A DNA stretch of 64,000 nt from Elusimicrobiota bacterium (GCA_028718185.1 JAQUMH010000002.1:68088-132087); one strand, 5' to 3'. Counted from the stretch's first letter, positions 17,418-42,615 are shown. Translations and numbers: made by a program. Notes: generated by a model not told the origin, from the sequence alone.

Positions 17418-18434
17418 TTACCAGAGGTCACGGACACTGCACAGCACCAATTGGTCGTCGCCAAGAATTCCTGCCATAGCACCTTGAGCAACTAACACAC
17501 TACGTAAAAAAACTTTTCTACCACCGGGATTACCTACAATAACTACCTCAAAACCACCGGGGAAGTTGCCGGCAGCAATTGCATACTGTGGAACAATTTT
17601 AGGAGCACGTGCCCAAACAGTAGGAACAGAACTATTAGGTGATATGCCATATTTATAACCACTGCCCATTATACCTGTAATCATTTCTGTTAAAACTTTA
17701 CATTGAAATTTAGGTATTTTATAAGTAGGGTTGACAATTGGTGTCATATTACCTGCTCCGTCCAAAGTCCAAAAAGCTACGGAAGAAACTTCTTCTGATG
17801 CGTTCCAGGCATAAACAACATTGTTTGGAGGAGCGACTAGACCTTTAATGGTTTCTGTCCTTGAAGCTAGCGGGATATTCATTAATTGATAATAGTCGGC
17901 ATATAAAACACTTCGCCATTCAACAATCCTGTAACTTTGCCTATCGGTTATTGACCTCGGATTATCAGAAGTCAGGTAATAATAGTTAAACCTATACACA
18001 TCTATAGTATGAGTGATATTATTAACTGCATCAAATACACTTTTTGCTGAATCATTAGTAGCAAAAAAAAGGCTATTACCGACAGAAGTAGGACTGGATA
18101 CTAAAGTTCCGGGAGCGACAATAGCACCCTCTTCAATTTTTGGCAGGTGACTATCGCTTAATCCTTTAGGACAACCTGCAACCGTAGAAGTATCTATTCT
18201 TGTTGAATAGTCATTACCTGTCGGGCTATTATCAAAGATTCTTTTACATTCGGATAACCTCAAGTATATCCGGTTAAGCGTCTCCTGATTAGTTTTCTTT
18301 AAAGTATTTGCTACTTCAAAAGAAGTAAAACCGCGTGTAACATTAATAAGCAACATGCTTACACCGGGAACAATTATAAGGAAAATAGCTAATGAAATAA
18401 TTACTTCAATTAAGGTAAGCCCTTTTCTTTTCAT
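17418..18434 (-). CDS. PulG/PilW-like pseudopilin
   Basis: The 338-residue protein begins MKRKGLTLIEVIISLAIFLII, a class III prepilin signal: short basic leader, cleavage after G5, glutamate at mature position 5 and a hydrophobic helix. The rest is a globular C-terminal domain of unknown fold with many polar and Gly residues. It starts three bases after the stop of giant pseudopilin 1 and is the last gene of locus 1. It would be processed by a prepilin peptidase (not in this window) and inserted in a pilus-like fibre, probably as a minor subunit. Confidence 0.88.
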   Translation of the reverse strand: MKRKGLTLIEVIISLAIFLIIVPGVSMLLINVTRGFTSFEVANTLKKTNQETLNRIYLRLSECKRIFDNSPTGNDYSTRIDTSTVAGCPKGLSDSHLPKIEEGAIVAPGTLVSSPTSVGNSLFFATNDSAKSVFDAVNNITHTIDVYRFNYYYLTSDNPRSITDRQSYRIVEWRSVLYADYYQLMNIPLASRTETIKGLVAPPNNVVYAWNASEEVSSVAFWTLDGAGNMTPIVNPTYKIPKFQCKVLTEMITGIMGSGYKYGISPNSSVPTVWARAPKIVPQYAIAAGNFPGGFEVVIVGNPGGRKVFLRSVLVAQGAMAGILGDDQLVLCSVRDLW

Positions 18435-18437
18435 ATT

Positions 18438-21400
18438 TTACCTTTGAATATAAATTTGGATTTGGTCATAACTGTAATGTAAATCAAGATTTCGCCTATA
18501 ACACTCCACGCGTACTATATATGAACCTTTTGGAAAAAGCGCTGCATCTGATACATCCCAGGAATAAGAGGTACCATTGTCATGGAATGTATCCTTATGT
18601 CCTGCAGTAGTTAAACTATTATCATCGCAATAATGCCATGTCGCACCCCTGTCGCTGGAATATTTTATACTATATACAAGCGGTGTCGTCTCGCTATACG
18701 AAGGAGCTAAAGTAGTATATTCCTCAGTATAATCTTCATTGCCCCACCGTTTCCAGTTTATACTTGATTCAATAATAATTGGAAAAGTACTAAATGTAGA
18801 ATGAACATTTGTAGGATTTGTTATAGCTACTAAAGGGACCTGAGAAATCCAATCTTGCCCGGTATATAGACCTGCGTCTAAAAATGTTCTAAATACTGAC
18901 GTTAAAGCAAACTTCCCTATCTGAGCAGCTCCAAAATTTGCCTGAATTGCGAATCCGGAAACTGATAAATAAAAACTGCTAACCGTACCGGAACTCACTC
19001 TTACTGTGGAAGAAGCGGTACAACCAGCTCTTGTAGAATCATAATAAGTTCTGGAAACACCACCAACCACAGGAATTGAAAGGATAGTTCTTTGACTGCT
19101 ATAAATAGCATCATTCCATTCATCAGGTTCATCTCCAGTATCATCAAGTTTAAACGGTCTGTCAGCCAATATTGCGTCCAGTAAAGGAAAACTAAAAATA
19201 GTTGAAATATATGTTCCCAATGCCGTTATATTTCCATTTCCACCATACATATGCCTAAAGTATTTTCCCGGAACACTTCCACCATTTAAAAATGTTGTAC
19301 ATCCTCTATCCGCTGTCACAGTTAGTCTATTTGTATTAAAATCACCAAAAGTAGTATATTGTGCACGATAATATTCATTAGGAGATATACCTGTTGGTAA
19401 GTTACCGTTAATGTTCCATTGTGTTGCAAATACATTATCTGGGTATAATTCTCCCAACCAGTATCTTGAGTACCAGTTATTATCTTTCTTAGCAACTATA
19501 CGACTATTAGGATGACGGGAAGTGGTATCTGTAACACCACCATAAAATGGAGCGGATACCCCAGAACCCGGCCATATCTCATCTACATATATAACACCTA
19601 CTCCAGAACCCGTAATCCATGGTAATTCTCCAAACGCCATTGAATTTTCTATAGGTTCAGTATTACTTCCAAATTCACCCCCTAACCCATAGTAAAAATA
19701 ACAGAAACCGTTTATAGATGACCATATTGCCTGGGTCCTTAATAGTCCTTGACGGTATATTGAGAAAATTCTTGGAATATCAATCTCAAGTTGACCATTC
19801 CAGCCATTTTGCGTTTTATCAAAACCATTGTAATCGTTAGGACCAGAAGGAACAGCAGCAAAATACCAATTATAGCCATGTCTTTGTTTAACATCTGCAT
19901 AAGGACAATGCCGTGCATCACCTAATAACTGATATTGTTCAGTAAGCGGTGGAGTGACTCCTACCCAGGTATATGTTCTTGATAAATTACTTGGTTTGTT
20001 AAGAGGTGTCCCTGTTGTAAGGTCATTTCCAATACGGGTTTCAAAAGTATTCATTCCATTTAGCGCACCAAGTGTATTTGTAAATTTTATAATCCATCTT
20101 GCAGTATTTTTGGGTCTTTGATGATGATTATCAGTAAGATCCTGACTAAAATCATTTCCTACAGGACAAGGAATATATTCCAAACCATATACCCATTGTG
20201 CTACAGATAATCCAGTATTATCTGGCGCTTCTGGATGCCTTAATGGAGTATTATATAGTTTAATTAAAGTAGTTCCTACGATAGGATGACTAACTTCATA
20301 TCTAGCAGGGTCTTCAGTAACCACTGAACTTTGATAATTAACAGAATCACTCCCAACAATTCTTGTTACCTCAATTGACCCTGTAGGAATATTTTTATCA
20401 GGTATAAAAACCGTCGCAACCGGTAAAGTTGGATTACCCGGATGGCTGCCCGGATCCATAAAATACGCATAGACTCTCAACGTTATATTAGAATTGTTAG
20501 GATACCGTAAGTTTTCAGGATGTGATACCACACGCTCATACGGAAAACTCTGTGGGTCTTTAGCAGCATCTGAATAATTACGGATAGGTGGTACAGGCAG
20601 AAGTTCTCCGTGTAAATTTACTAATATTATATTTTTATTACTATTAATATCTCCTGAATTCAGCTCTTCTAATAACATTCTTAAACTTATTTCAGGTGGC
20701 GGGTTACCTAAGGGTGTCGCAGCAACTGCGGCGTTATAAATCCGTAACTCATCAGGATATCTTACCGCATTATTATACCTGTCACTCATAGCATAACTTT
20801 TAGCATCTGTAACCGGACCATTTTTAGGTACACCGTCAACATTTACCCTGCATTGCATTCTATCAGGATCATAAAAGTAATATTCGCCACCATCTACTTT
20901 CTGAGTTTTCCCGGGATAAAGATAGACAGATGGCATAACAATACTACCCGTAAAATCAGCTCTATTGATATAAGGGAGATATTGCTGGTCCCTGCCATAT
21001 GAAAGACGTGTAATCCAGTGGGTTCGTATTTCAAACCCTGTACATCTTGTTTGCAAATCTTGTATTATACCTTCAAACATAGGTCTCATTGTCCATAAAT
21101 TAGTCCACCACCCGGGAACATTTTCTATCGCTAAAACATATAAATCCATAACCTGCGTAGGAACATATGGCGACGAAATTGTTTTTAAAATACTCATTGT
21201 TTCTGCTAATATTTCCGGAGATGCTGACGGATTGGAAGGTGATGATCTATATACCCTGACATATACTTTACGGACAAAAGATTCTTCGGGAACTTTAAAC
21301 ACAGATATCCGTCTAACATATTTCCAACCATTACTAACGCTTACATTATCGCTTGATACTGTTGATGGGTCGGTTACGTTTTTATCTGTAGTTAATACAG

Positions 21401-21656
21401 GTTTATATGCAACACCATCGTCATAATCGTCTAAAACATTGATTTTCTCTTTTTCTGAACCTGAAACAAGCGACCTTAATTCTTCCATCATCTGTATTAC
21501 TTTTTGAGTGGCAAACGCCTTCTCTTTTATTCTAATTGTTTGCCTGCTCATAAAATATTGTATTTTCATTACTGATAATACAATTATAACAAGTATTACC
21601 ATAGTAATCACTAATTCCACTAAAGTAAAACCTTTATTATTAATTTTGGTGTTCAT
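18438..21656 (-). CDS. Giant pseudopilin, copy 1
   Basis: The 1072-residue protein has a class III prepilin signal (NNKGFTLVELVITMVILVII; cleavage after G9, E at mature position 5) and then about 1030 residues of extracellular domain, several times longer than ordinary pseudopilins (about 120-350). After the helix comes a conserved block to about residue 180, a central part I cannot assign, and a C-terminal beta-sandwich-like domain (SLKYSSDRG-type, W-YCDD, PKGSYIVRVECYR) that looks like an Ig or FN3 fold. It is a paralogue of copy 2 (23185-26484), with blocks such as IRNYSDAAKDPQ and PIPTGSI-like motifs shared throughout. Confidence 0.85.
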   Translation of the reverse strand: MNTKINNKGFTLVELVITMVILVIIVLSVMKIQYFMSRQTIRIKEKAFATQKVIQMMEELRSLVSGSEKEKINVLDDYDDGVAYKPVLTTDKNVTDPSTVSSDNVSVSNGWKYVRRISVFKVPEESFVRKVYVRVYRSSPSNPSASPEILAETMSILKTISSPYVPTQVMDLYVLAIENVPGWWTNLWTMRPMFEGIIQDLQTRCTGFEIRTHWITRLSYGRDQQYLPYINRADFTGSIVMPSVYLYPGKTQKVDGGEYYFYDPDRMQCRVNVDGVPKNGPVTDAKSYAMSDRYNNAVRYPDELRIYNAAVAATPLGNPPPEISLRMLLEELNSGDINSNKNIILVNLHGELLPVPPIRNYSDAAKDPQSFPYERVVSHPENLRYPNNSNITLRVYAYFMDPGSHPGNPTLPVATVFIPDKNIPTGSIEVTRIVGSDSVNYQSSVVTEDPARYEVSHPIVGTTLIKLYNTPLRHPEAPDNTGLSVAQWVYGLEYIPCPVGNDFSQDLTDNHHQRPKNTARWIIKFTNTLGALNGMNTFETRIGNDLTTGTPLNKPSNLSRTYTWVGVTPPLTEQYQLLGDARHCPYADVKQRHGYNWYFAAVPSGPNDYNGFDKTQNGWNGQLEIDIPRIFSIYRQGLLRTQAIWSSINGFCYFYYGLGGEFGSNTEPIENSMAFGELPWITGSGVGVIYVDEIWPGSGVSAPFYGGVTDTTSRHPNSRIVAKKDNNWYSRYWLGELYPDNVFATQWNINGNLPTGISPNEYYRAQYTTFGDFNTNRLTVTADRGCTTFLNGGSVPGKYFRHMYGGNGNITALGTYISTIFSFPLLDAILADRPFKLDDTGDEPDEWNDAIYSSQRTILSIPVVGGVSRTYYDSTRAGCTASSTVRVSSGTVSSFYLSVSGFAIQANFGAAQIGKFALTSVFRTFLDAGLYTGQDWISQVPLVAITNPTNVHSTFSTFPIIIESSINWKRWGNEDYTEEYTTLAPSYSETTPLVYSIKYSSDRGATWHYCDDNSLTTAGHKDTFHDNGTSYSWDVSDAALFPKGSYIVRVECYRRNLDLHYSYDQIQIYIQR

Positions 21657-21721
21657 AATTGTTTTTGAGTCCGCTGAAATAACCGATATTCCCTGATTTC
21701 ACAAATTAAAGTCCATATTTT

Positions 21722-21855
21722 TCAGACTTTCTCGCGTAGGGGTGGGCTTGCCCACCCTTCATTATCAGAAAAACCTTATCGGGCGACCAAGCCTGCCTGA
21801 CGGCAGTCAGGGTCGCTAACTACAGGGCTTGCCAAGAGCAAGCCACTACGAAACT
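21722..21855. repeat. Hairpin repeats between pilin genes
   Basis: CGTAGGGGTGGGCTTGCCCACCC (palindromic GGGTGGGC/GCCCACCC) at about 21735, a GGGCGACC-CTGCCTGACGGCAG block near 21780, and CTTGCCAAGAGCAAG with tail CCACTAC near 21827. The first two recur at 26503-26577. Confidence 0.75.
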
Positions 21856-21871
21856 TTCGTACGATTACTAT

Positions 21872-23107
21872 CTAAAAATTCGGGATGCTTAATGTCCGAT
21901 GTGCCGATTTATTCTCCCTATATTGACATATTCGTTGTCTGACTGCAGTTAATATATTATTATCATAATCAATTTCTGTTATATCACTGGTACTTAAATT
22001 ATTTAATGTCAAACCGCTATAAGCTATTACACAACCGGTTATATCACAGGGTGGATTAATTGTGATAGTTCCACTTACATATATAAGCCCGCTAAACAAA
22101 CTGCTTGAGCCGGCACTTACTGTAAGATTACCATTCACAACTAAAACCCCGCTTGCTTTTAATGGTCTTGATAAGTCAAAAGTAGCATCTCCGTCGATAT
22201 ATATAAGCGACATATCAGGTAAAGGATTCGGCAAAGAATTTACACTACCAACCGTAAAATCAGCCAGTGATTTTAACTCAATAGTTGAGATTCCAAGTAC
22301 ATATTTTATAGTTGGGTCATTTAAAACTACCGAATATAAAGAACTTCCAATTACCGTACCGCCACTAAGAAGCGGTGGTTGTCCTAAAAAACGTCCGCAA
22401 GCAGTACCACTACTGCCACCATTTATTCTACCATTTGGGAATAGATTGACAGTCTCATGTCCTGCAGTTCCTCCGTCTTTTACAATAAAAGCGCAGGCGG
22501 GTATTTGTAAATTCATCCTGATGATTTCAGTCGACATCTTACATTTAGCAACTATTTCATTTGGAAATATATTAAAAGGTATCGCTGCTTTGCGACGATA
22601 AACATAACCGGTACTAACTATAGACCATGCAAGACCATCACCTTTTTGTTCAGTTCCATTAAAACGTTCTGCGGTAATATCTTGTGCAGCATCAGGAACA
22701 ATAGTTTCTGACTGACGTTTAACTTCATATCTTGCCCACCTTATACCGTTTTCACTTAATTCATATTCTTTAACAAGACCCATGTTTTCATCTATAGTAT
22801 CCAATTTTACTTCTTTTGGATTAAATGCCCCGTCTTCCCAAGAATGAAGCGGTGAATGACTACTGTTGTGTACCGGCTGTGCTTCTTGTCTTTTAAACCA
22901 AGAAATTGCATCTACTAAACCGGATTTTGCAACATTTTCAGCTTCAGCTACTGTATTTTGTTGTTGTTTGCTTTCCCTATAACTGTTAGTTATAAGTTGC
23001 GCTCCTGTAAGAATAAGTATCATCACAGCAAAAAGCAAAACGACAACTGTGAGTAGTGCGACACCTTTATTTGATTTATGATTATTGGGATTAGGATGGA
23101 AATTCAT
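21872..23107 (-). CDS. PilX-like membrane-anchored pseudopilin partner, copy 1
   Basis: The 411-residue protein has a short basic N-terminus, then KGVALLTVVVLLFAVMILILTGAQLI, a PilX/GspK-type hydrophobic helix, and an AEAENVAKSGL segment typical of PilX N-terminal domains. The C-terminal half alternates short hydrophobic strands and polar turns (LVVNGNLTVSAGSS, LIYVSGTITINPP), suggesting a beta-solenoid. A longer frame from 23188 overlaps the upstream stop by ATGA, but it runs through a REP-like hairpin; the start at 23107 matches the start context of copy 2 (CCAAAAT-AATATG), so I prefer it. It ends QYRENKS then IPNF, as in copy 2. Confidence 0.85.
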   Translation of the reverse strand: MNFHPNPNNHKSNKGVALLTVVVLLFAVMILILTGAQLITNSYRESKQQQNTVAEAENVAKSGLVDAISWFKRQEAQPVHNSSHSPLHSWEDGAFNPKEVKLDTIDENMGLVKEYELSENGIRWARYEVKRQSETIVPDAAQDITAERFNGTEQKGDGLAWSIVSTGYVYRRKAAIPFNIFPNEIVAKCKMSTEIIRMNLQIPACAFIVKDGGTAGHETVNLFPNGRINGGSSGTACGRFLGQPPLLSGGTVIGSSLYSVVLNDPTIKYVLGISTIELKSLADFTVGSVNSLPNPLPDMSLIYIDGDATFDLSRPLKASGVLVVNGNLTVSAGSSSLFSGLIYVSGTITINPPCDITGCVIAYSGLTLNNLSTSDITEIDYDNNILTAVRQRICQYRENKSAHRTLSIPNF

Positions 23108-23115
23108 ATTATTTT

Positions 23116-23145
23116 GGCACCGCGAAGCGGTGCGGCTACAATTAT
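23116..23145. repeat. REP-like hairpin
   Basis: GCACCGCGAAGCGGTGC with tail GGCTACAATT, just upstream of the preferred start of the PilX-like gene. If translation starts at 23188 it would be coding. Confidence 0.8.
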
Positions 23146-23184
23146 GATACAACATATCTTGATTAGGAGACTTTTTCAACTGTT

Positions 23185-26100
23185 TCATCTCTTAATAAAA
23201 AGCTGTAGTTGGTTATAACTGTAGTGTAAATCAATAGTCTCCCTATAACATTCCACACGGATTAAGTAAGAACCTGTCGGAAAATCTGCTGCAGGTACAT
23301 TCCACGTATAAGTTAATGGAGGAGTAGTAACAAAGTGCCCTGAATTTTTTTCTCCCGGAGTAGTATCACTATCGCCATCACAATAATGCCATGTCGAACC
23401 TTTATCGTTGGAATATTTCAAACTATATTTAAGTGTTGTCGCTTCAGTATAACCGGCAGGATATTCTTCGGTATAATTATTACCACCCCATCGTTTCCAA
23501 TCATTGCTCCATGCGATATTAATTGAAGTAGGATTAGTAAATGTATTACCAACATCTGTTGGACTGGTTATAGTTAATAATGGAACCTGAGAAATCTTAA
23601 ATTCAGGAATAGCAGGAGATAAAACAGTACTGTATAAACCACCATCTAAAAACGCTCTAATTATTGTCATCAAACATAACTTTCCTATCAGGGCTGAACC
23701 AATTCCATACTGCCAAGCCAACCCATTAATTACAAAATAAAAATTATCAGTACCTTTGCTTACTCTTAGTGTTGAACTTGTACTCCAACTACCTGCAGGA
23801 GGACCGGCAAAATCAGTATTATAATAAGTTCTCGGGGTACCGGAAATAGCAGGAATTGAAAGAGTAGTCCTCTGACCTTGATAATCAAGATCACCCCACT
23901 CGGGAGGGAAATCCGTATTAACGTTAAGATTAATAGGGTAATCAAGCTTTAATAAATCTTGTGGTAGAGAAAAATTGAACATATTTGCAAGAGCTGACCC
24001 TAAAGGGTCAACTCTATGCGCATTATTATTATCACGGTATATCTGTTCAAGCGGACCAGAACCTAATCCTGTAGGTCCTCCGTTTGCAAACGATTGAAGT
24101 CCCCGGTTTAGGGTGAAAGGATCTCTATTTCTATCAAAAACAGCACCGGGTATATCAAGATATTTTGCACGATAAAATCTATCGGGAGTTGTACCTGTCC
24201 GTAAATTCCCATAAGTATTCCAATTTGCATATTCACTATCAGGATATAGCTCTCCTAACCAGGGCTTTGAGTACCACGACAGATCTTTCATAGCAGCTAT
24301 GCGAGCAGTTTCAACCCTAGTATGATCAGTGCAAGAATCATAATCAGAAAGGACAGGACTCACACCAAGCCCAGGTATCATTTCACTAACATACTTTCTA
24401 CCCGTTGAACCATCCGTAACAAATGGCAGTCTATTAAATACTATACCATTACCAAGAGGAGCATAACCTTCAGACCCGAATTCGCCTCCTATACCATAAA
24501 AACTAAAAGTCGCCGCACTTATACCTGTCAATATCGCCTGTGTTTTCAATAGTCCTTGACGATATGTCTGGTTAAATCTTGGTAAATCAATATCCGTTCC
24601 CCTATATATCCATGTAGACAACCAACCATTAGTTGCTTTACTAAATCCTTGATAATCTGCTGCAGGAACCGGCGTAAAATACCAATTGTAGCCACTACTT
24701 TGTTTAACATCTGAATAAGGACAATGCCGCGGATCACCCATAAATTGGTATTTCTCTGTAGCCGGAACCGCCGGAGTTGGACCTACCCATGTATATGTTC
24801 TTGATAAATTAGGAAAATCTGTTGTTGTATTATTTCCAATACGAGTTTCAAAAGTATTCATTCCATTTAACGAACCGGCTGTATTGGTAAATCTTATAAT
24901 CCATCTTGCTGTGTTTTTGGGTATCGCGAGAGGACAAGCAAGGTCACGACTAAAGTAAGGAGCAGGAGTAATAACAGGATCTTCTACCGGACAAGGAATG
25001 TATTCTAAACCATACAACCATTTTGTTGCAAGTAATCCGCGACCACTTGGGTTCGGAGGATGCCTTAACGGAGTATTATATAGTTCAATTAAAGTATTTG
25101 TTAATGGAATAGGATGACTAACATGATAGTTAGCAGGGTCAGTCGCAGGTAAATTTGAATAATCAACTGTACTACTCCCAATAATTATGTTTACATGTAT
25201 TGACCCTGTAGGAATATCTTTATCAGGTATAAAAACCGTTGCCACCGGTAAACTTGGTAAAACCGGAACATACGGATGGTTGTTTGGATTCATAAAATAC
25301 GCATAGACCCTCAAAGATATATCTGAATTAATAGGATAATTTAATTTTTCAGGATGAGATACAACACGCACATCAGGAAAAGCCTGCGGGTCTTTAGCAG
25401 CATCTGAATAATTGCGGATAGGAGGATATGGCGTCTGTTCTGAGTGTAAATTTACTATTATTACATTCTTCCACTTATTGTGAATGACAGGATCATCGGA
25501 ATTCATTTCTTCTATTAACATTCTCAAACTTACTTCAGGTTTTGGAAATATTGAATCATAAATTCGTTTCTCATCAGGATATCTTAATGCATGATTAAAC
25601 CTGTCACTCATAACATAACTTAAAGGATTTGTAACAAGTGGATCAATATAAGGACTTGCAGCTGCATCTAATCTTACTCTGCCTTGCATTCTATCAGAAT
25701 CAAAGTAAAGAAAATCACTATTATCTATCGCCCTGCATAATCCCGGGTAAAAATAGACAAATGGCATTGGAATATCGCTCGTATGATTAGTTTTGTTAAC
25801 ATAAGGAACATATTGTGTGTCCCTGCCATACGAAAGGCGGGTAACCCAATGAACCCGTAATTCCAAACCCGGACACCTTGACTGTATATCGCTTATCATC
25901 CTTTCAAACATTGGCTTAAGTGTAAAGAAAAAAACAGAATACCCGGGAACATTTTCTAATGCTAAAACGTATAAATCAAAAACTTGTGTAGGAACATACT
26001 TTGTTGTAATTGTTCTCAGGATACTCATCGTTTCTGCTAATGTTTCGGGGTGCGTTGGGTCAGAAGGCAATGCCTTATATACTCTGACATATACTTTACG

Positions 26101-26484
26101 GGTAAACGCATCTTCCGGAACTCTAAGAATAGTTACACGCCTTAAATATTTCCAACCGTTATTAATGCCAATATTATCGCTTGATACTGTTGACGGGTTG
26201 GTTATGTTTTTATCCGTAGTTAATACAGTATTATATGTGTTACCATCGTCATAATCATCTAAAACGTTAATCTGTTCCTTTTCTAAACCTGTAACAAGTG
26301 ACCTTAATTCTTCCATCATCTGTATTACTTTTTGAGTAGCAAAAGTTTTTTCTTTTATTCTAACAGTCTGATTACTCATAAAATATTGTATTTTTGTTAT
26401 TGACAATACTATTATGACAAGTATTATCATAGTAATAACTACTTCTATTAAACTGAATCCTTTGTTGTTAATTTTGATGTTCAT
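23185..26484 (-). CDS. Giant pseudopilin, copy 2
   Basis: The 1099-residue protein has the prepilin signal NNKGFSLIEVVITMIILVII (E at mature position 5) and a very long extracellular region that parallels copy 1 from end to end, including a QKVIQMMEELRSLV coiled stretch, DLYVLALENVPG, RNYSDAAKDPQ, PTGSI and the C-terminal W-YCDGDS, PTGSYLIRVECYR block. The open frame extends to 26562 through a GGGTGGGC hairpin repeat; the ATG at 26484 (MNIKINN) equals the start of copy 1 (MNTKINN). Copy 2 is slightly longer through small insertions. Which of the two is the older cannot be told. Confidence 0.85.
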   Translation of the reverse strand: MNIKINNKGFSLIEVVITMIILVIIVLSITKIQYFMSNQTVRIKEKTFATQKVIQMMEELRSLVTGLEKEQINVLDDYDDGNTYNTVLTTDKNITNPSTVSSDNIGINNGWKYLRRVTILRVPEDAFTRKVYVRVYKALPSDPTHPETLAETMSILRTITTKYVPTQVFDLYVLALENVPGYSVFFFTLKPMFERMISDIQSRCPGLELRVHWVTRLSYGRDTQYVPYVNKTNHTSDIPMPFVYFYPGLCRAIDNSDFLYFDSDRMQGRVRLDAAASPYIDPLVTNPLSYVMSDRFNHALRYPDEKRIYDSIFPKPEVSLRMLIEEMNSDDPVIHNKWKNVIIVNLHSEQTPYPPIRNYSDAAKDPQAFPDVRVVSHPEKLNYPINSDISLRVYAYFMNPNNHPYVPVLPSLPVATVFIPDKDIPTGSIHVNIIIGSSTVDYSNLPATDPANYHVSHPIPLTNTLIELYNTPLRHPPNPSGRGLLATKWLYGLEYIPCPVEDPVITPAPYFSRDLACPLAIPKNTARWIIRFTNTAGSLNGMNTFETRIGNNTTTDFPNLSRTYTWVGPTPAVPATEKYQFMGDPRHCPYSDVKQSSGYNWYFTPVPAADYQGFSKATNGWLSTWIYRGTDIDLPRFNQTYRQGLLKTQAILTGISAATFSFYGIGGEFGSEGYAPLGNGIVFNRLPFVTDGSTGRKYVSEMIPGLGVSPVLSDYDSCTDHTRVETARIAAMKDLSWYSKPWLGELYPDSEYANWNTYGNLRTGTTPDRFYRAKYLDIPGAVFDRNRDPFTLNRGLQSFANGGPTGLGSGPLEQIYRDNNNAHRVDPLGSALANMFNFSLPQDLLKLDYPINLNVNTDFPPEWGDLDYQGQRTTLSIPAISGTPRTYYNTDFAGPPAGSWSTSSTLRVSKGTDNFYFVINGLAWQYGIGSALIGKLCLMTIIRAFLDGGLYSTVLSPAIPEFKISQVPLLTITSPTDVGNTFTNPTSINIAWSNDWKRWGGNNYTEEYPAGYTEATTLKYSLKYSNDKGSTWHYCDGDSDTTPGEKNSGHFVTTPPLTYTWNVPAADFPTGSYLIRVECYRETIDLHYSYNQLQLFIKR

Positions 26485-26499
26485 AATAATTTTTCCGCG

Positions 26500-26676
26500 T
26501 AGGGGTGGGCTTGCCCACCCTTTATCGGGCGACTCCGCCACAAAGCATTGGCGGACAAGCAAGGTCGCCCCTACAACAACTTAACCGAGCAAGCTCGGTA
26601 ACTACAACTACACCAGACCTTGGACATTGGACTTCGCCCGCCACTAAACATTGGCGAGGTAGGGACATCGGACAAT
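26500..26676. repeat. Hairpins plus a GGACAT element between pilin genes
   Basis: A GGGTGGGC/GCCCACCC hairpin at about 26505, a GCGACTCCGCCAC-TTGGCGGACAAG block (26522-26577), GAGCAAGCTCGGTAACTACAAC near 26585-26608, and at about 26617-26676 the TTGGACATTGGACTTCGCC element whose core is nearly the same as the insert in nadC. Confidence 0.8.
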
Positions 26677-26682
26677 TGTCAC

Positions 26683-27975
26683 CTAAAAATTCGGGATATC
26701 TAATCTCCGGATTGCTGATTTGTTTTCCCTGTATTGACATATTCGTTGTCTAACTGAATCTACTATTGATTGGTCATAAGCAATTTCTGCTACATCAGTA
26801 GCAGCTGTGTTAGATAATGTTAAACCGCGATATGCTATAACACAACCGCTGATATAACAAGGCGGATTAATTGTCGCAATTCCACTTACATATATTACTC
26901 CACTATATAAACTGCTTGTATTAATATCTATTGTAAGATTACCATTTACAATTAAAATACCACTTGACCGCAATGGTCTTTCTGCAGTAAAATTAGCATC
27001 ACCGTTGATATATATAAGCGCCATATCCGGCATAGGACTAGGTAAATCACTGACACTATTAACTGAATAATCAGCCAACGCTCTCAATTGCAAAGTTGAA
27101 ACCCCAAGAACAAAAGATACAGTGTAGTCAGTACCCGGGTATGATTGATACTGCGGAGTACCCAATACTCTACCAGTTGCAGCAGTAGAAATGGCGCTAT
27201 AATCAACAATAAACGGAGTTGTTCCCAAGGAACGACCACAACCAACAACTGAACCTGCATTTACTTTAGCATATTTTTCTATTATAACTTTTGCGTTTGA
27301 TGTAGGCGGCGGGGCAGTACCTCCATTGTTCACAAAAACAGCGCAAGTTGGAACTTGCAAACTAAGCCTTATAATCTCAGTTGATATTTTTGACTTAGAA
27401 ACTATTTCATTCGGAGGGACATTAAAAGGTACAGCCGGATTATGACGACGATAAACATAACCGGTACTTACAAAAGACCATGCAAGTCCGTCTCCTTTTT
27501 GTCCGGTACCCGGATTAAAACGTTCCGAGGTAATATCATGTGCTGCTTCCGGATCATATGGAAAGTTATATGGAGCAACGGTATCTAATTGCCGTTTAAT
27601 TTCATATCTTGCCCACCTTATACCATTTTCACTTAGTTCATATTCTTTAACAAGTCCTATATTTTGATTAATAGTTTCTGTGCTTGTATTAGGATTAAAA
27701 GCTCCATCTTCCCATGTATGAGGTACTGGTGCTGAATAGCTACTATGTACCGGCTGGTTTGGTTGTCTTTTAAACCAAGCAATAGTATCTACTAACCCGG
27801 ATCTGGCAACATTTTCAGCTTCACCCACTGTGTCTTGCTGGTGTCTGCTTTCTTTGATGCTGGTTGTTATAAGCTGTGCGCCTGTAAGTATAAGTATCAT
27901 CACAGCAAAAAGCAAAATTACAACTGTGAGTAGTGCGACACCTTTATTTGATTTATGGTTATTTAGTAAGGTCAT
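26683..27975 (-). CDS. PilX-like membrane-anchored pseudopilin partner, copy 2
   Basis: The 430-residue protein starts MTLLNNHKSNKGVALLTVV and has the same PilX-type helix, EAENVARSGLVD segment, FKRQPNQP, and C-terminal beta-solenoid-like half (LIVNGNLTID, SGVIYVSGIATINPP) as copy 1. It ends QYRENKSAIRRLDIPNF. It is the first gene after the riboswitch and probably the first of the operon 27975 to 17418. Between copies 1 and 2 the gene pair PilX-like plus giant pseudopilin is repeated in the same order. No ribosome-binding site is obvious. Confidence 0.88.
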   Translation of the reverse strand: MTLLNNHKSNKGVALLTVVILLFAVMILILTGAQLITTSIKESRHQQDTVGEAENVARSGLVDTIAWFKRQPNQPVHSSYSAPVPHTWEDGAFNPNTSTETINQNIGLVKEYELSENGIRWARYEIKRQLDTVAPYNFPYDPEAAHDITSERFNPGTGQKGDGLAWSFVSTGYVYRRHNPAVPFNVPPNEIVSKSKISTEIIRLSLQVPTCAVFVNNGGTAPPPTSNAKVIIEKYAKVNAGSVVGCGRSLGTTPFIVDYSAISTAATGRVLGTPQYQSYPGTDYTVSFVLGVSTLQLRALADYSVNSVSDLPSPMPDMALIYINGDANFTAERPLRSSGILIVNGNLTIDINTSSLYSGVIYVSGIATINPPCYISGCVIAYRGLTLSNTAATDVAEIAYDQSIVDSVRQRICQYRENKSAIRRLDIPNF

Positions 27976-37449: not shown

Positions 37450-38718
37450 TTACAAATTCCAGTTCGGGCTAAGCTCTTTCCAAGAACTTCTTGAAGGTCT
37501 GCTGCTGTTAAATAAAATGTTTGATGCAGCAACCGGGTCATAATATATATCAAATGTCCCTGTTCCACTCATAGTGCCAATAACTATAACACAACCGACA
37601 AAACCGGGATTGCCGGAATACGTCATGTTGCCTCCTATATGAGCAAAACCTTTAAACAAAATTTTAGTTAACGCAGCAGTTGGTTTGCAAGTATGCAATC
37701 CGTTATCAATATTAATCCCACTACCAGTTTCATATTGTCCCGTCGCGGAAGTATCGTTACAATATTCCTGATATTCTTTCCATGCATCAGGAGGAACATT
37801 CACTGTAGGACTGCCCGCTCCGTTTCCATTACCATCCAAATTGCCTCTAACAATTAGATTGCCTGCCAAATATGAGTTTTTGAATGAACAGTTACCGGTT
37901 ATGTAATATGTTCTTGTAGTTGCATTAGTCAAATTTTTAAATTCACCACTTCCCACATAATAAGAACTTCCTGCCGGTGTTTGTACTGCACCAGCTAGTG
38001 CAGGCGCTCCGGTGACTTTTTGTGCTTCAAGTGCATAATCGTTAAATCTAATATCCGGTAAATCCGGAACATCGTAGCCAGCATGCCATTCGGCAAGTTC
38101 TTCATCAGCAAGAGAACCGTATTTTGGCAGTGCACCTGATGTATATCTTGGAGTAATGTAACCCCGTGCATATTTTCTGGGAAATAAGGCACCACAAGTA
38201 ATGGTGGAAAGCGAATACATAGGACCCCAATGTATTTGTGCATTACCACCGACATTTATAGCCGCCGCATTAAGAGCACCCTTTACACACGTTTTAGCAT
38301 AAACTGCCTGAATAGTCCTGAATTCCGCAGTAGCTAAATCCTTACCGGACGCGGTTATTGTTACTTCATTTGAATCAGGACCGCTAGACAATTTTACTTT
38401 GTAATAACCACCTTCAACATCGGAAAATATAGTTTGACCATTATAATCAGAAACAACTGCTCCGGCACAAACTATATCCCAAATCCCTGTCTCATTTAAT
38501 TTAAAAACCCCTCTGTCGAGCCCTGCCTCAGCTAAATGAAACGCTCTCGTAGTTTTTGTTTCTCTCACTGTCCATTTTGCTTCATTACCTGACATAAAAA
38601 CAAGTGCAGGAATTACAATACCAACAATCATAGCAATAATGAGCATAATGATGACAACTTGCCCTCTAGAGGCGGGAAGTGGGAAGTGGAAAGTAGAAAG
38701 TAGTTTTTTGTTTTTCAT
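37450..38718 (-). CDS. PilX-like protein of pseudopilin locus 2
   Basis: The 422-residue protein has a hydrophobic helix ([26 protein letters not shown]) and an [16 protein letters not shown] segment typical of PilX N-terminal domains, then a long region with short glycine-rich strands ([44 protein letters not shown]), probably a beta-solenoid as in the locus 1 partners. Start at 38718 has GGAGG before it and overlaps the stop of the four-helix-bundle gene (ATGA). Residues [10 protein letters not shown] before the helix come from a GGGAAGTGG word repeat. uvrB follows seven bases on. Confidence 0.85.
38660..38706. repeat. GGGAAGTGG word repeat at the N-terminus of the PilX-like gene
   Basis: GCGGGAAGTGGGAAGTGG then AAAGTAGAAAGTAG, coding the residues ahead of the membrane helix. 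The complementary words are at 39078-39140. Confidence 0.7.
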
Positions 38719-39077
38719 TTTGCCTCCCATTTTCTAATTAAACCTGTAAGCATTCTTCCAATTTTACAAGTTAAATCCATAATTTGTTGAGCTTCCTTTG
38801 TTTCTAAATATTTTATTCTTAAACATATTACTGTCTGAGTTTCTAACTTGCTTAAAGAACCTCTTGCCATATATAAAAATTGTTTAAATTATGTTTTGCT
38901 TTGCCGGGATGAACCTTCAGCGATATTGGAAGCTACTGATACTGATGCTCTCCTCATTTGAGATGTAAGTCCATAAATTTCACTTTGAGGAAATTTTCTG
39001 GATATCTTATATATCATTTCAGAAAGTTGAATTGCTATTTGCCAAACTTCCAAATTTTCGTGTGGTCTTCTATCCAC
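38715..39077 (-). pseudogene. Four-helix-bundle (S23-like) protein with one in-frame ochre codon
   Basis: One continuous frame of 121 codons runs from ATG 39077 to TGA at 38715-38717 and is broken only by a single TAA at 38889-38891. Before it the protein reads MDRRPHENLEVWQIAIQL to SRQSKT; after it FKQFLYMARGSLSKLETQ to IRKWEAK, which are the usual parts of this family (compare the intact copy at 39673: KLQFFIIARGSLVELETQL). Where the TAA stands the family normally has a glutamate, so it is one base away from GAA. The TGA overlaps the ATG of the PilX-like gene. Either a recent pseudogene or a real truncated product. Confidence 0.82.
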
Positions 39078-39140
39078 TTTCTATCCTTTACTTCCCACTC
39101 CCCATTTTCCACTTCCTACTTCCTACTCCCTACTTCTCGC
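39078..39140. repeat. CTTCCTACTT word repeat
   Basis: CACTTTCTATCCTTTACTTCC, CACTCCCCATTTTCCACTTCC, TACTTCCTACTCCCTACTTC: degenerate 8-10 base words between pilin and four-helix-bundle gene. Confidence 0.65.
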
Positions 39141-39145
39141 CTATC

Positions 39146-39676
39146 TCAGTTCATTATCCGGACCTTGGCTACTGATAATTGAAGTGCTTTTGTGTGGGCT
39201 GAATATGTCTTTTTCTCAAAGGTAATTGAGATATTTACAATAGAATCTTCTGACGTTTGCGGATAAGTAAATTGAACACTTCTCAGTGATCTTGCAAGAA
39301 CTCTTGTGGAGTTTATAACCTCATAAAAATCTCTACCATCTTGATAATATCTATATTGCTGATTATCATTTGTGAATGTTATTCTCGAAAATGGCGGATT
39401 ACTACCCTGATTATATGCCGGATATCTATCAATAACAACAGAAGAAGCATCTGCTTGTCTTAAGTTCTTGTTCATTGCAGAAATACAAGTTCTGGCATCT
39501 CTCTGAATTTCACCTTTTGCACTAGAAAGTTGCCAAAATTGAATCCATTTCAGGAACAATGACCCAAGAGCCATAGCTAATATAGAAATAGTTACTATAT
39601 TTATCATAAGCTCAATAAGGGTAAAGCCCTTACTACAGCGGGAATGCGGATAAGCGGATAAGCGGATAAGTTTCAT
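39146..39676 (-). CDS. PulG/PilW-like pseudopilin of locus 2
   Basis: The 176-residue protein has a class III prepilin signal SKGFTLIELMINIVTISILAMAL (cleavage after G17, E at mature position 5) and a normal-length C-terminal domain (RDARTCISAMNKNLRQADASSVVI), as in PilW/PulJ-like minor pseudopilins. The leader MKLIRLSAYPHSRC is encoded by a GCGGATAAGCGGATAAG word repeat and is longer than usual. The ATG overlaps the TGA of the preceding four-helix-bundle gene. Confidence 0.88.
   Translation of the reverse strand: MKLIRLSAYPHSRCSKGFTLIELMINIVTISILAMALGSLFLKWIQFWQLSSAKGEIQRDARTCISAMNKNLRQADASSVVIDRYPAYNQGSNPPFSRITFTNDNQQYRYYQDGRDFYEVINSTRVLARSLRSVQFTYPQTSEDSIVNISITFEKKTYSAHTKALQLSVAKVRIMN
39640..39670. 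repeat. GCGGATAAG word repeat in the pilin leader
   Basis: GCGGATAAGCGGATAAGCGG-ATAAG, nine-base period, coding the positive leader of the pilin. Related GCTTACCTGCTTACC words are at 40045-40080. Confidence 0.8.
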
Positions 39677-40029
39677 AATCGTTCTCTACGATTCCTAATT
39701 AAACCATATAAAAGTCGACTAACATCCCCTATTCTATCAAAAATATAAGTCTCCTGAAAAAATTTCAATTCAAGCGAAAGCTGTAATTGAGTTTCTAATT
39801 CTACTAACGATCCTCTTGCAATAATAAAAAATTGTAATTTCTCTCTTCCACTATTTCTTGCGGCTCCCTCAGCAATATTACTTACTACAGAAACTGCAGC
39901 TCTTTGTATCTGTTGAACAATACCAAAACGTTCTTCTTTTGGAAATTTTTCTGTTATTAAGTAAACTTCTTTTGCAAGATTAAATGCTTTTTGATAAGCA
40001 ATCAATTTTTTATGTGGTGCCTCTATAAT
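39673..40029 (-). CDS. Four-helix-bundle (S23-like) protein, intact copy, probable AUU start
   Basis: The protein reads IEAPHKKLIAYQKAFNLAKEVYLITEKFPKEERFGIVQQIQRAAVSVVSNIAEGAAR in short parts: the family core FPKEERFGI, IQRAAVSVVSNIAEG and FFIIARGSLVELETQL is clear (118 residues from AUU). There is no ATG: AAGGAG (40036-40041) is followed after six bases by ATT at 40029 and the family N-terminus IEAPHKKL begins there; TTG 40005 is a poorer alternative. The TGA overlaps the next pilin ATG. This family was first met as intervening sequence proteins of 23S rRNA; its role here is unknown. Confidence 0.8.
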   Translation of the reverse strand: MIEAPHKKLIAYQKAFNLAKEVYLITEKFPKEERFGIVQQIQRAAVSVVSNIAEGAARNSGREKLQFFIIARGSLVELETQLQLSLELKFFQETYIFDRIGDVSRLLYGLIRNRRERL

Positions 40030-40086
40030 TTTTATCTCCTTAATCTTTCTTACCCGCTTACCTGCTTACCTGCTTATCCGCCTAAA

Positions 40087-42615
40087 TTACGGCCATTGAA
40101 AATCTACTGTTACTGTTGGATACGTATCGTTAACAAGTGTAGGAGTTACACCTGTTTTCGATGTCGTTATAACACCTGTGTCACCGGTAATTTTTGTGTA
40201 CCAAGCACGCATATTATATGTCCATCCTTTTCTTACTGCAATTTCATAAGTCCCATCTGATATTGAAATTGTTCCATAATAAACACTTGTACCACCTCTA
40301 AAAGATGAATCTATAGGGGGTGGTGCATCAGCAGGTACAACATCAATTGTTGCAACAATTAAAACACCTGTGGTAATATTACCACCTATAGCTGTATCAC
40401 TAACTCTTCCTGTAATTTTTCCCCATGCGGATGTAATTTTAAAATTTTTACCGGATGACTCAACACCGGCAGTAACGGTAACGGGAACCGTCCAAACAGG
40501 ATCTCCACAAATGTATGAATCCGCTTCATCCAGAACAGGATATAACTGATAATCGGTTGCTGTTTTCGCACCCTTTATTATATAAGTACCGTTTGTCCCA
40601 GAAACCACATCTTTTGAAAAACTAGCGGCGGTACTTGTTGTTCTTATAGTAATATAAGGCAAAAGTCCTCCAGTAGCATTGTATGTTGTCCCGGATATCC
40701 AGCCGGCAGGATATATTTTCAAATCTGGGTTAATGGTAACCGATTTCCCAAAATTCACCTCAACTGTTGCGTTGGCAGCATCTTCCGAACTGCCGGATGT
40801 CCATTTTGCCCCGTCAGGTGTGGAAGTATAATCCGGGTTGGCTATAACTGTATAGGAACCAACATCTACAGCAAAACCATAATAACCACTTGAGTTAGTG
40901 GGTGCGGAATAACTACCGGCGGAAACTGTTATACCAGAAACACCGGCTAATGTGTCACCCCTTATAACCCTGCCTGAAATAAATCCACCCTCGGATGTGG
41001 ATGAAAGTATTATATCACACCTTGTATTACCACCGGTCGTTATGTTATTATCCGGCACAAGTCCGGATAGAGTTAAAGACGAAGAATAAATAGTTACTGT
41101 TCCAGTGGCTATACCAGTAAGATAATAATAACCGGTTGAGGAAGTTGTCGTTGTATTTGAAAGCCCGTCATTAGCTGAAACAACTGCCTGAAATACCGGT
41201 GTCCCAAGAACAGGTATTTCGGAATTGTTTGTATTTTGAGGATTAGCGTATGCATGGTGATAAACCCAGTCGGTGGAATTATTGTTTGTATCATAAGCAT
41301 TGCCGTTTGTATCACCAACCATTTTTACCCAAGTATATGTTGAATAAGAAAGCCGTTCTATACTATCGTCGTTATCAAATTCTGCAACATTAAAAAAATT
41401 TCCTTCTACAGCTTTAGTTGCATGGTTGGCACCCGGTGACCAAGCAACACTATCAATCCAGACATCTGTTCCTCCCAATGAGGCGTCTGCTGCAAGAAGA
41501 CCTATTCCTCCTTCTCCATTCATAACAGAAGTTTTTATTATATCTTGTCCACCTGCAGAATAACAAAAATCTGCAGTTACTCCATTCACTGCCTGTTGGC
41601 TTGCAATTAAAACATATCCATGTGATGGGACACCGCCATTTATACCAATATTATTAGTTAAAAAAGGGAAATCTGCACAATTATTGGCAGAATCTACATA
41701 TCTCAATTTGAACATGAAAATAGCACCACCACTCATAAGTCGTATCCAATATGTCGTAGGATTATAAAGTTCTACATATTCCGTAGTATTGTCGGTAAGA
41801 CCGCCGCAAACTTCTGATATTACAAGGTGGTCTCTTTTGTAGACAAATCCGTTTGCATTCCCTATTTCTTTTGCTGTTAATTGAATGTTAGTTTCTGCAG
41901 AAACTACGATATTGGCGGACTCCTTTGGCCAGTAGCCTGCTCTTGAAACATTTAGTTGGATGGTAGCTGGCGAAGTGGTTTTTATCATATAGAAGCCAGT
42001 AGTGGATGTTAAATCGTTTCTATTGATATCCTGGACTATTTCAACATTAGCACCTGAAATTCCAACCGGAGTTCCAGTTGTTGTAACTAATCCATAGACC
42101 TTTCCACTAAGCGTTTTTCTATTAGGGTCATCTCTTAAATTATATAAGACAAGTGATTTATTTTCTGCGCCTTCTACCCACTTAACCTCCATCTTTATTT
42201 TTTTTATACCCTCATCCTCCGCAGTTGCAGTCATTGTAGAAATTTCTGTTCCTGATTCCCGTGCTTTCCAGACAGTTGTATATCTTATAAAATTAGCATC
42301 ACCGACTCTTAAAGATTCGGGCGTATAATCAACATTTGTATTGTCATAGCCGTAAGTCATAAGATCACTTTCTGAAGTTGTCAAAAGCCGTGCATAAGAA
42401 ACATTTTTTAATGTTTCAATTTTTTCTTGTGCCAGATTGTTTGCAATAGTTCTGGTTTTAGAAGTAATAAGACCTTTACCAATTGTGCCAAATGTTGTAA
42501 TTATACCCAATATAACGATACTGATTACAAGGATAGTAACCATTATTTCAACTTGGGAAAAACCGTAGATTGAAAGATTAAAAGATTTAAAGATTAAAAA
42601 ATTGCGCTTTTTCAT
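40087..42615 (-). CDS. Pseudopilin fused to carboxypeptidase-regulatory-like and lamin-tail domains
   Basis: The 842-residue protein begins with a prepilin signal GFSQVEIMVTILVISIVILGI (E at mature position 5). After an NNLAQEKIETLKNVSY segment come a CarboxypepD_reg-like beta domain (about 168-250: SGKVYGLVTTTGTPVGISGA), a lamin-tail domain (about 263-455: HLVISEVCGG, EYVELYNPTTYWIRL, HGYVLIASQ, DVWIDSVAW), and then two or three more CarboxypepD_reg-like repeats (GGFISGRVIRGDTLAGVSGI). The gene is the first of locus 2 and has a good promoter. The leader is built partly from AGATTAAAAGATT words. Confidence 0.88.
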   Translation of the reverse strand: MKKRNFLIFKSFNLSIYGFSQVEIMVTILVISIVILGIITTFGTIGKGLITSKTRTIANNLAQEKIETLKNVSYARLLTTSESDLMTYGYDNTNVDYTPESLRVGDANFIRYTTVWKARESGTEISTMTATAEDEGIKKIKMEVKWVEGAENKSLVLYNLRDDPNRKTLSGKVYGLVTTTGTPVGISGANVEIVQDINRNDLTSTTGFYMIKTTSPATIQLNVSRAGYWPKESANIVVSAETNIQLTAKEIGNANGFVYKRDHLVISEVCGGLTDNTTEYVELYNPTTYWIRLMSGGAIFMFKLRYVDSANNCADFPFLTNNIGINGGVPSHGYVLIASQQAVNGVTADFCYSAGGQDIIKTSVMNGEGGIGLLAADASLGGTDVWIDSVAWSPGANHATKAVEGNFFNVAEFDNDDSIERLSYSTYTWVKMVGDTNGNAYDTNNNSTDWVYHHAYANPQNTNNSEIPVLGTPVFQAVVSANDGLSNTTTTSSTGYYYLTGIATGTVTIYSSSLTLSGLVPDNNITTGGNTRCDIILSSTSEGGFISGRVIRGDTLAGVSGITVSAGSYSAPTNSSGYYGFAVDVGSYTVIANPDYTSTPDGAKWTSGSSEDAANATVEVNFGKSVTINPDLKIYPAGWISGTTYNATGGLLPYITIRTTSTAASFSKDVVSGTNGTYIIKGAKTATDYQLYPVLDEADSYICGDPVWTVPVTVTAGVESSGKNFKITSAWGKITGRVSDTAIGGNITTGVLIVATIDVVPADAPPPIDSSFRGGTSVYYGTISISDGTYEIAVRKGWTYNMRAWYTKITGDTGVITTSKTGVTPTLVNDTYPTVTVDFQWP

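Follow-up and report, generated by a model that had tools for sequence, protein, structure and literature searches.

A tandemly duplicated cassette with giant modular prepilins in an Elusimicrobiota genome, a candidate type IV pilus tip set

Gene content of the locus

We analyzed a window of 64,000 nucleotides from an Elusimicrobiota bacterium (GCA_028718185.1, JAQUMH010000002.1:68088-132087) that carries, at 17418-27975 on the minus strand, a minor-prepilin cassette here called set A (Table 1). A gene for a K-like minor prepilin (PilX/GspK type) is followed by a gene for a giant prepilin with a PilV/GspI-like N-terminus. This pair is present twice, and a gene for a J-like prepilin (PilW/GspJ type) has been added once. 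An initial annotation of the same DNA had described a tandem duplication of a two-gene module, and the open reading frames were found where it had placed them. The two giants share 59% identity over 1048 aligned residues (75% over the first 160), a similarity well above chance (E = 0, 1239 bits), and the two K-like proteins share 65% over 406 aligned residues. The duplication is therefore real; the natural unit, however, has three genes rather than two, the J gene being absent from copy 1, where giant 1 runs straight into K-like 2. For giant 1, an upstream TTG offers an alternative start that would give 1125 residues. In Pfam, the two giants and the J-like protein each match the prepilin motif, with no other match above cut-off.

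In a protein tree the window's two giants are sisters with support of 100/100 and, therefore, arose by lineage-specific tandem duplication. The window's own genome (G000), searched by family and by stretches, has only two set A K-like genes. The locus is flanked by groEL on one side and dnaE on the other; the relative G002 has the same neighborhood, so set A probably still lies in its ancestral place. As the initial annotation had stated for assembly ATPase and secretin, the window (G000:C2:68088-132087) holds no match to PilB/GspE, to secretins or to the platform protein PilC/GspF. It does contain a second minor-pilin cassette that the annotation had overlooked, set B, which is taken up below.

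Table 1. Prepilin genes of the window and regions of giant 2 (lengths in amino acids, aa; Glu5, glutamate at mature position 5)
Feature	Position	Strand	Length or residues	Remarks
Set A K-like 1 (PilX/GspK-type minor prepilin)	26683-27975	-	430 aa	Thr in place of Glu5
Set A giant 1 (modular prepilin, PilV/GspI-like N-terminus)	23185-26484	-	1099 aa from ATG	Glu5 present
Set A K-like 2 (minor prepilin)	21872-23188	-	438 aa	4-base overlap with giant 1 end
Set A giant 2 (modular prepilin)	18438-21656	-	1072 aa	modeled (see text)
Set A J-like (PilW/GspJ-type minor prepilin)	17418-18434	-	338 aa	carries Glu5; completes copy 2 as its third gene
Set B large I-like prepilin	40087-42615	-	842 aa	carboxypeptidase-regulatory-like domains; weak lamin-tail-domain matches
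Set B J-like prepilin	39146-39676	-	176 aa	Glu5 present
Set B K-like prepilin	37450-38730	-	426 aa	no Glu5
Giant 2 pilin module	21177-21656	-	1-160	leader, ~54-residue helix 1, three-stranded sheet
Giant 2 alpha/beta core	20547-21176	-	161-370	most conserved part of the body; holds NLHGELLPxPPxRNYSDAAKDP
Giant 2 beta-rich insert			371-570	from model
Giant 2 mixed region			571-940	from model
Giant 2 C-terminal beta-rich domain	18438-18836	-	941-1072	immunoglobulin-like (Ig-like) by strand count; Asp-box-like SSDRGATW hairpin

Conservation of the cassette and its pilin features

We searched 60 related genomes for the giant. Long relatives were present in four (G002, G005, G008, and G028), the first two of which have several copies, and the other matches were short and confined to the pilin N-terminus. 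A profile scan of genome contigs, based on a nine-sequence alignment, recovered 41 giant loci in 36 named genomes from at least five phyla (Elusimicrobia, candidate division FCPU426, Planctomycetota, Acidobacteriota, Sericytochromatia/Cyanobacteria bins, UBP14, and further bins); one locus, on a 4.2-kb contig of a Panacagrimonas bin, is possibly mis-binned. The giant tree largely tracks phylum, and further tandem or repeated sets occur at L060 (two giants, 40% identity), at L076/L084 (57%), and in G002 and G005. These sequences point to an old family with mostly vertical inheritance and local duplications.

The usual gene order is K-like (~360-540 residues), giant (1030-1540 residues), and J-like (~310-450 residues), and the cassette genes are adjacent and co-directional, with overlaps or gaps of a few bases. 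K homologues were recognized in 32 locus or window rows and J homologues in 30 (weakly in L073) by profiles built from eight Elusimicrobia sequences, which still recognized distant loci. Distances among the three proteins co-vary (Mantel rho 0.67 for K and giant, 0.81 for giant and J, and 0.61 for K and J; 0 of 2000 permutations as high), a co-variation that is partly explained by shared ancestry alone. No earlier description of the cassette was found in the literature searched, which left out most subscription journals.

Capping K/PilX subunits are known to lack Glu5 (PMC10191384, PMC9934059, PMC7541494), and set A follows this signature. Glu5 is present in all 36 readable giant rows and in every readable J-like row, and it is present in none of the 31 K-like rows; two J-like rows with mis-set starts (L062 and L063) also read GFTLVE. 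The K-like proteins are bulky, mostly 360-540 residues, as expected of a K/PilX subunit. The N-termini of 8 of 11 giants match the PilV and GspI models, below the cut-offs of those models. Against the PDB, the K profile gave nothing significant and the J profile matched pilin N-termini only.

The K-like genes at L054:4464-5975 and L056:2295-3818 have a prepilin leader of ~116 residues with a helix-turn-helix (HTH_17, E 2e-11 in L054). Cleavage of this leader, if it occurs, is predicted to leave a DNA-binding peptide free in the cytoplasm.

In its large and J-like subunits, set B resembles set A in the helix-1 region only, and its K-like protein shows a weak resemblance to the C-terminus of the set A K-like proteins. 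With set B at 37450-42615, set A is ruled out as the genome's sole source of I, J, and K pilins. The set B large subunit occurs in 20 of the 60 relatives, including genomes without the giant, compared with 4 of 60 for set A, and at L048 the two cassettes lie side by side; from this distribution and co-occurrence, set B appears to be the common tip set, with set A as an accessory one that undergoes duplication. In Myxococcus xanthus, three tip clusters serve one machine (PMC7541494).

At L109 (G000:C1:309313-310422, minus strand) an RsmG 16S rRNA methyltransferase of ~225 residues and a type IV major-type prepilin form one in-frame fusion, in which RsmG is followed by KKKSAG/FTLIELMIVV. This join is present in all eight searched genomes of the window's family (with a frame break upstream in G003) and absent from G008, which belongs to another family of the order. 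A cut by prepilin peptidase is predicted to free the methyltransferase. Relatives of family f4 (G010-G058), which belong to the same phylum and have no giant, each carry short pilin-like genes by the dozen, the highest count of scored matches being at least 64.

Structure and conservation of the giant's body

An AlphaFold2 model of giant 2, obtained from a 39-row alignment, has a predicted local distance difference test score (pLDDT) of 87.7 and a predicted template modeling score (pTM) of 0.83 and consists of a pilin module and a separate body of ~910 residues. We set the domain borders in Table 1 from the secondary structure of this model. The core modeled alone reached a pLDDT of 86.4.

The initial annotation had assigned the middle 700 residues to no family, and this agrees with our searches. 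The body matched no family in Pfam, NCBIfam, or PDB sequences, and profiles of 11 and of 39 giants matched only pilin N-termini in the PDB. Fold searches with the full-length model returned local beta-sandwich matches only in the PDB (best AvmM and TTHA1873, target template modeling score 0.41-0.46) and nothing at E ≤ 0.001 among viral structures; the alpha/beta core alone gave nothing below E 0.4. The annotation's C-terminal Ig-like domain is compatible with the beta-rich residues 941-1072 of the model, and three members of the giant family have weak BNR/Asp-box matches in Pfam (E ~0.1). Caspases carry an HG motif similar to the NLHGE that follows a strand in the core, and a caspase-like fold was considered for this reason; it was rejected, since it found no support in the fold search and the strand after this one is not followed by a conserved Cys.

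Conservation peaks in the core, where mean pairwise identity is 0.46 vs. 0.37 for the pilin domain and 0.27-0.40 outside the core overall. The core also contains numerous polar residues that do not vary. Twelve residues are identical across phyla in 39 of 39 sequences (H213, R222, D292, N295, R299, N347, R359, N360, S362, D363, R375, and H379). In the giant of copy 1, 8 of 121 near-invariant positions have been lost, including W183, W184, and G350. Some giants have inserted carbohydrate-binding domains (PA14 in 2 of 39 giants, CBM_35 in 1 of 39); at L034:6765-10307, the same gene as that seen in L059, a PA14 domain (E 3e-24) is inserted in the beta-rich part. These inserts weakly favor a role in glycan or surface contact.

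The body is also coded without the pilin module, behind a signal-peptide-like N-terminus (L051:10614-13508; L030:8455-9903 with L035:137-1444), and is, therefore, a separable, exported module. Pilin-less body paralogues lie directly downstream of a cassette in G002 and G005 (that of G005 split by a contig end), and in the tree such a paralogue clusters with a cassette giant.

Assembly machinery and the proposed tip function

A complete type IVa pilus (T4aP) machine is encoded in the window's genome, outside the window. The genes pilM, N, O, P, and Q lie in a row at G000:C7:101-106 kb, and PilB, PilT, PilC, two PilA-like pilins, and PilD are encoded at the C7/C2 contig junction (names assigned by motif, position, and family matches). 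The genome also has a Tad cluster at G000:C1:843-850 kb, one canonical PilC/GspF and two Tad-type platform proteins, and extra PilB-like ATPases and secretins without a platform protein of their own. A separate type II secretion system (T2SS) with its own GspE, GspF, and GspD was not found in this genome, which has no second canonical platform. All 35 cassette genomes tested have PilC/GspF matches, several apparently with a single canonical copy. PilY1 (PF05567) was found in none of these 35 genomes and in none of the giants, an absence that is weaker evidence in incomplete bins and distant phyla; the Panacagrimonas bin served as positive control for the search (E 2.7e-53).

Set A resembles the HIJK-type tip sets of T4aP (FimU-PilV-PilW-PilX) and T2SS (GspH-I-J-K) in that its genes are adjacent, the leaders are of class III, I and J have Glu5, and the bulky K does not; there are likewise several alternative sets for one machine, as known from M. 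xanthus. It differs in having no H/FimU gene, an I/PilV-like subunit 5 to 10 times the normal size, and no PilY1 partner. Like the modular pilins (Streptococcus sanguinis PilB with a vWA domain and PilC with a lectin, CofB/TcpB, ComZ), the giants join a pilin module to a large extra module presumed to lie at the tip; unlike them, the extra module is ~910 residues of unrecognized type in a fixed three-gene cassette across phyla. The giants are modular pilins in the broad sense of a pilin plus a distinct module, as seen in the model and in the pilin-less bodies of G002 and G005. Recognized domains outside the type IV pilus families, however, appear in this module only as the PA14 and CBM_35 inserts. 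The InterPro census of modular pilins uses recognized domains, yet many modules have no signatures; the most extreme modular pilin highlighted there has 860 residues in total (PMC8179133), compared with 1030-1540 here. The role proposed for the giant, that of a large tip effector, resembles that of the tip adhesin PilY1/PilC1, and the giant's body is also encoded in two relatives as a secreted-type protein of its own; the giant is not a PilY1 member, as it has no PF05567 propeller and its body is covalently joined to a minor pilin. The Verru_Chthon cassette proteins (TIGR02596-TIGR02600) and the cyanobacterial Hps pseudopilins form pseudopilin cassettes with a large member. The giants and J-like proteins fell below every cut-off of the corresponding models, with N-terminal subthreshold matches only.

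We consider it probable that set A is an accessory T4aP tip or priming cassette that carries its own effector in the place that PilY1 takes in other bacteria. The initial annotation had proposed a tip, an adhesin, or a carrier of a large fiber. Its tip or adhesin is the best supported, by the K/I/J signature, the conserved cassette, and the T4aP machine. A carrier of a large fiber is unneeded, given an ordinary T4aP machine, ordinary short major pilins, and a giant whose N-terminus is of the minor PilV/GspI type. The assembly genes that it suggested looking for elsewhere in the genome (ATPases, PilC/GspF, and secretin) lie outside the window. An enzyme-family match in a genome devoid of fiber genes would have spoken against its reading, and we found neither the match nor such a lack. 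From the genes and their motifs, the conservation and co-divergence of the cassette, the presence of the machine, and the body's separability and modeled fold, all seen directly here, we infer complex formation, tip position, binding function, and T4aP use, as follows. Prepilin peptidase would cleave the K-like, giant (I/PilV-like), and J-like prepilins, which would meet in the inner membrane to form a complex that starts the pilus and stays at its tip, capped by the K-like protein without Glu5. The giant's pilin module would anchor the ~910-residue effector, which would pass out through the secretin and be exposed on the pilus tip. There, the body would bind a surface or ligand, so that the job of PilY1 is done by a covalent part of a minor pilin. 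After the tandem duplication, two K/giant pairs with one common J may provide two alternative tip effectors.

Several points weigh against this proposal. Set A is known here as genes and models, and the K-like proteins match PilX_N weakly (E 0.0046 in one relative). The set A cassettes contain no fourth pilin, although an H/FimU gene may lie elsewhere in the genome, and because of this we propose membership in an HIJK tip set for the I-J-K part only. PilY1 proteins in phyla remote from the model's seed could have been missed. In the stretches read, the cassette never lies near assembly genes, so that its use by the T4aP rather than the Tad machine is something that we infer. Finally, the core is more strongly conserved than would be expected if the body were an adhesin following changing ligands, and this leaves space for a catalytic role.

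Another idea is that the body is an enzyme on the pilus or cell surface, its core acting on an extracellular polymer. Near its strand ends the core holds His, Arg, Asn, Ser, and Asp residues that do not vary, and it is more conserved than the pilin domain, both of which fit this idea; however, neither sequence nor fold matched an enzyme family, the invariant positions may serve structure or make up a binding site, and copy 1 has lost near-invariant positions. We consider this idea unlikely. We also think it improbable that the cassette is the tip of a short secretion-type pseudopilus, with K, giant, and J priming a piston that expels other proteins and the body serving as periplasmic cargo receptor. 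I, J, and K subunits also make the T2SS tip and contact substrates there (PMC10191384), and the giant N-terminus fits GspI about as well as PilV. The canonical machine, however, has PilT-type ATPases, pilMNOPQ, and ordinary major pilins, and the one canonical PilC/GspF leaves no separate platform for a T2SS. Moreover, we know of no T2SS precedent for a 100-kDa receptor on an I subunit. Assembly of set A by the genome's Tad (type IVc) machine seems least credible and very improbable: the Tad cluster is present and the cassettes are unlinked to either machine, but G002, G005, G065, G066, G067, G081, and G084 match the platform model only through the two repeats of a single canonical PilC. To our knowledge, Tad pilins and TadE/F are of another kind, without GFTLxE.

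Within the proposed tip cassette, the body is most likely the contact or binding device of the pilus. Most knowledge of what type IV pilus tips carry comes from PilY1 in proteobacteria and a few modular pilins. It is possible, if doubtful, that the body has a novel fold and a conserved site for catalysis or binding and that the cassette is a widespread, PilY1-independent means of displaying a large effector, perhaps an enzyme or a glycan-binding machine, in phyla without a known type IV pilus tip effector. As a T4aP tip cassette, set A would supply a well-delimited set of three conserved tip proteins for Elusimicrobiota, FCPU426, Planctomycetota, Acidobacteriota, and Sericytochromatia-like bins, groups in which PilY1 was not found, and the mode of attachment of these mostly uncultured bacteria would become testable.

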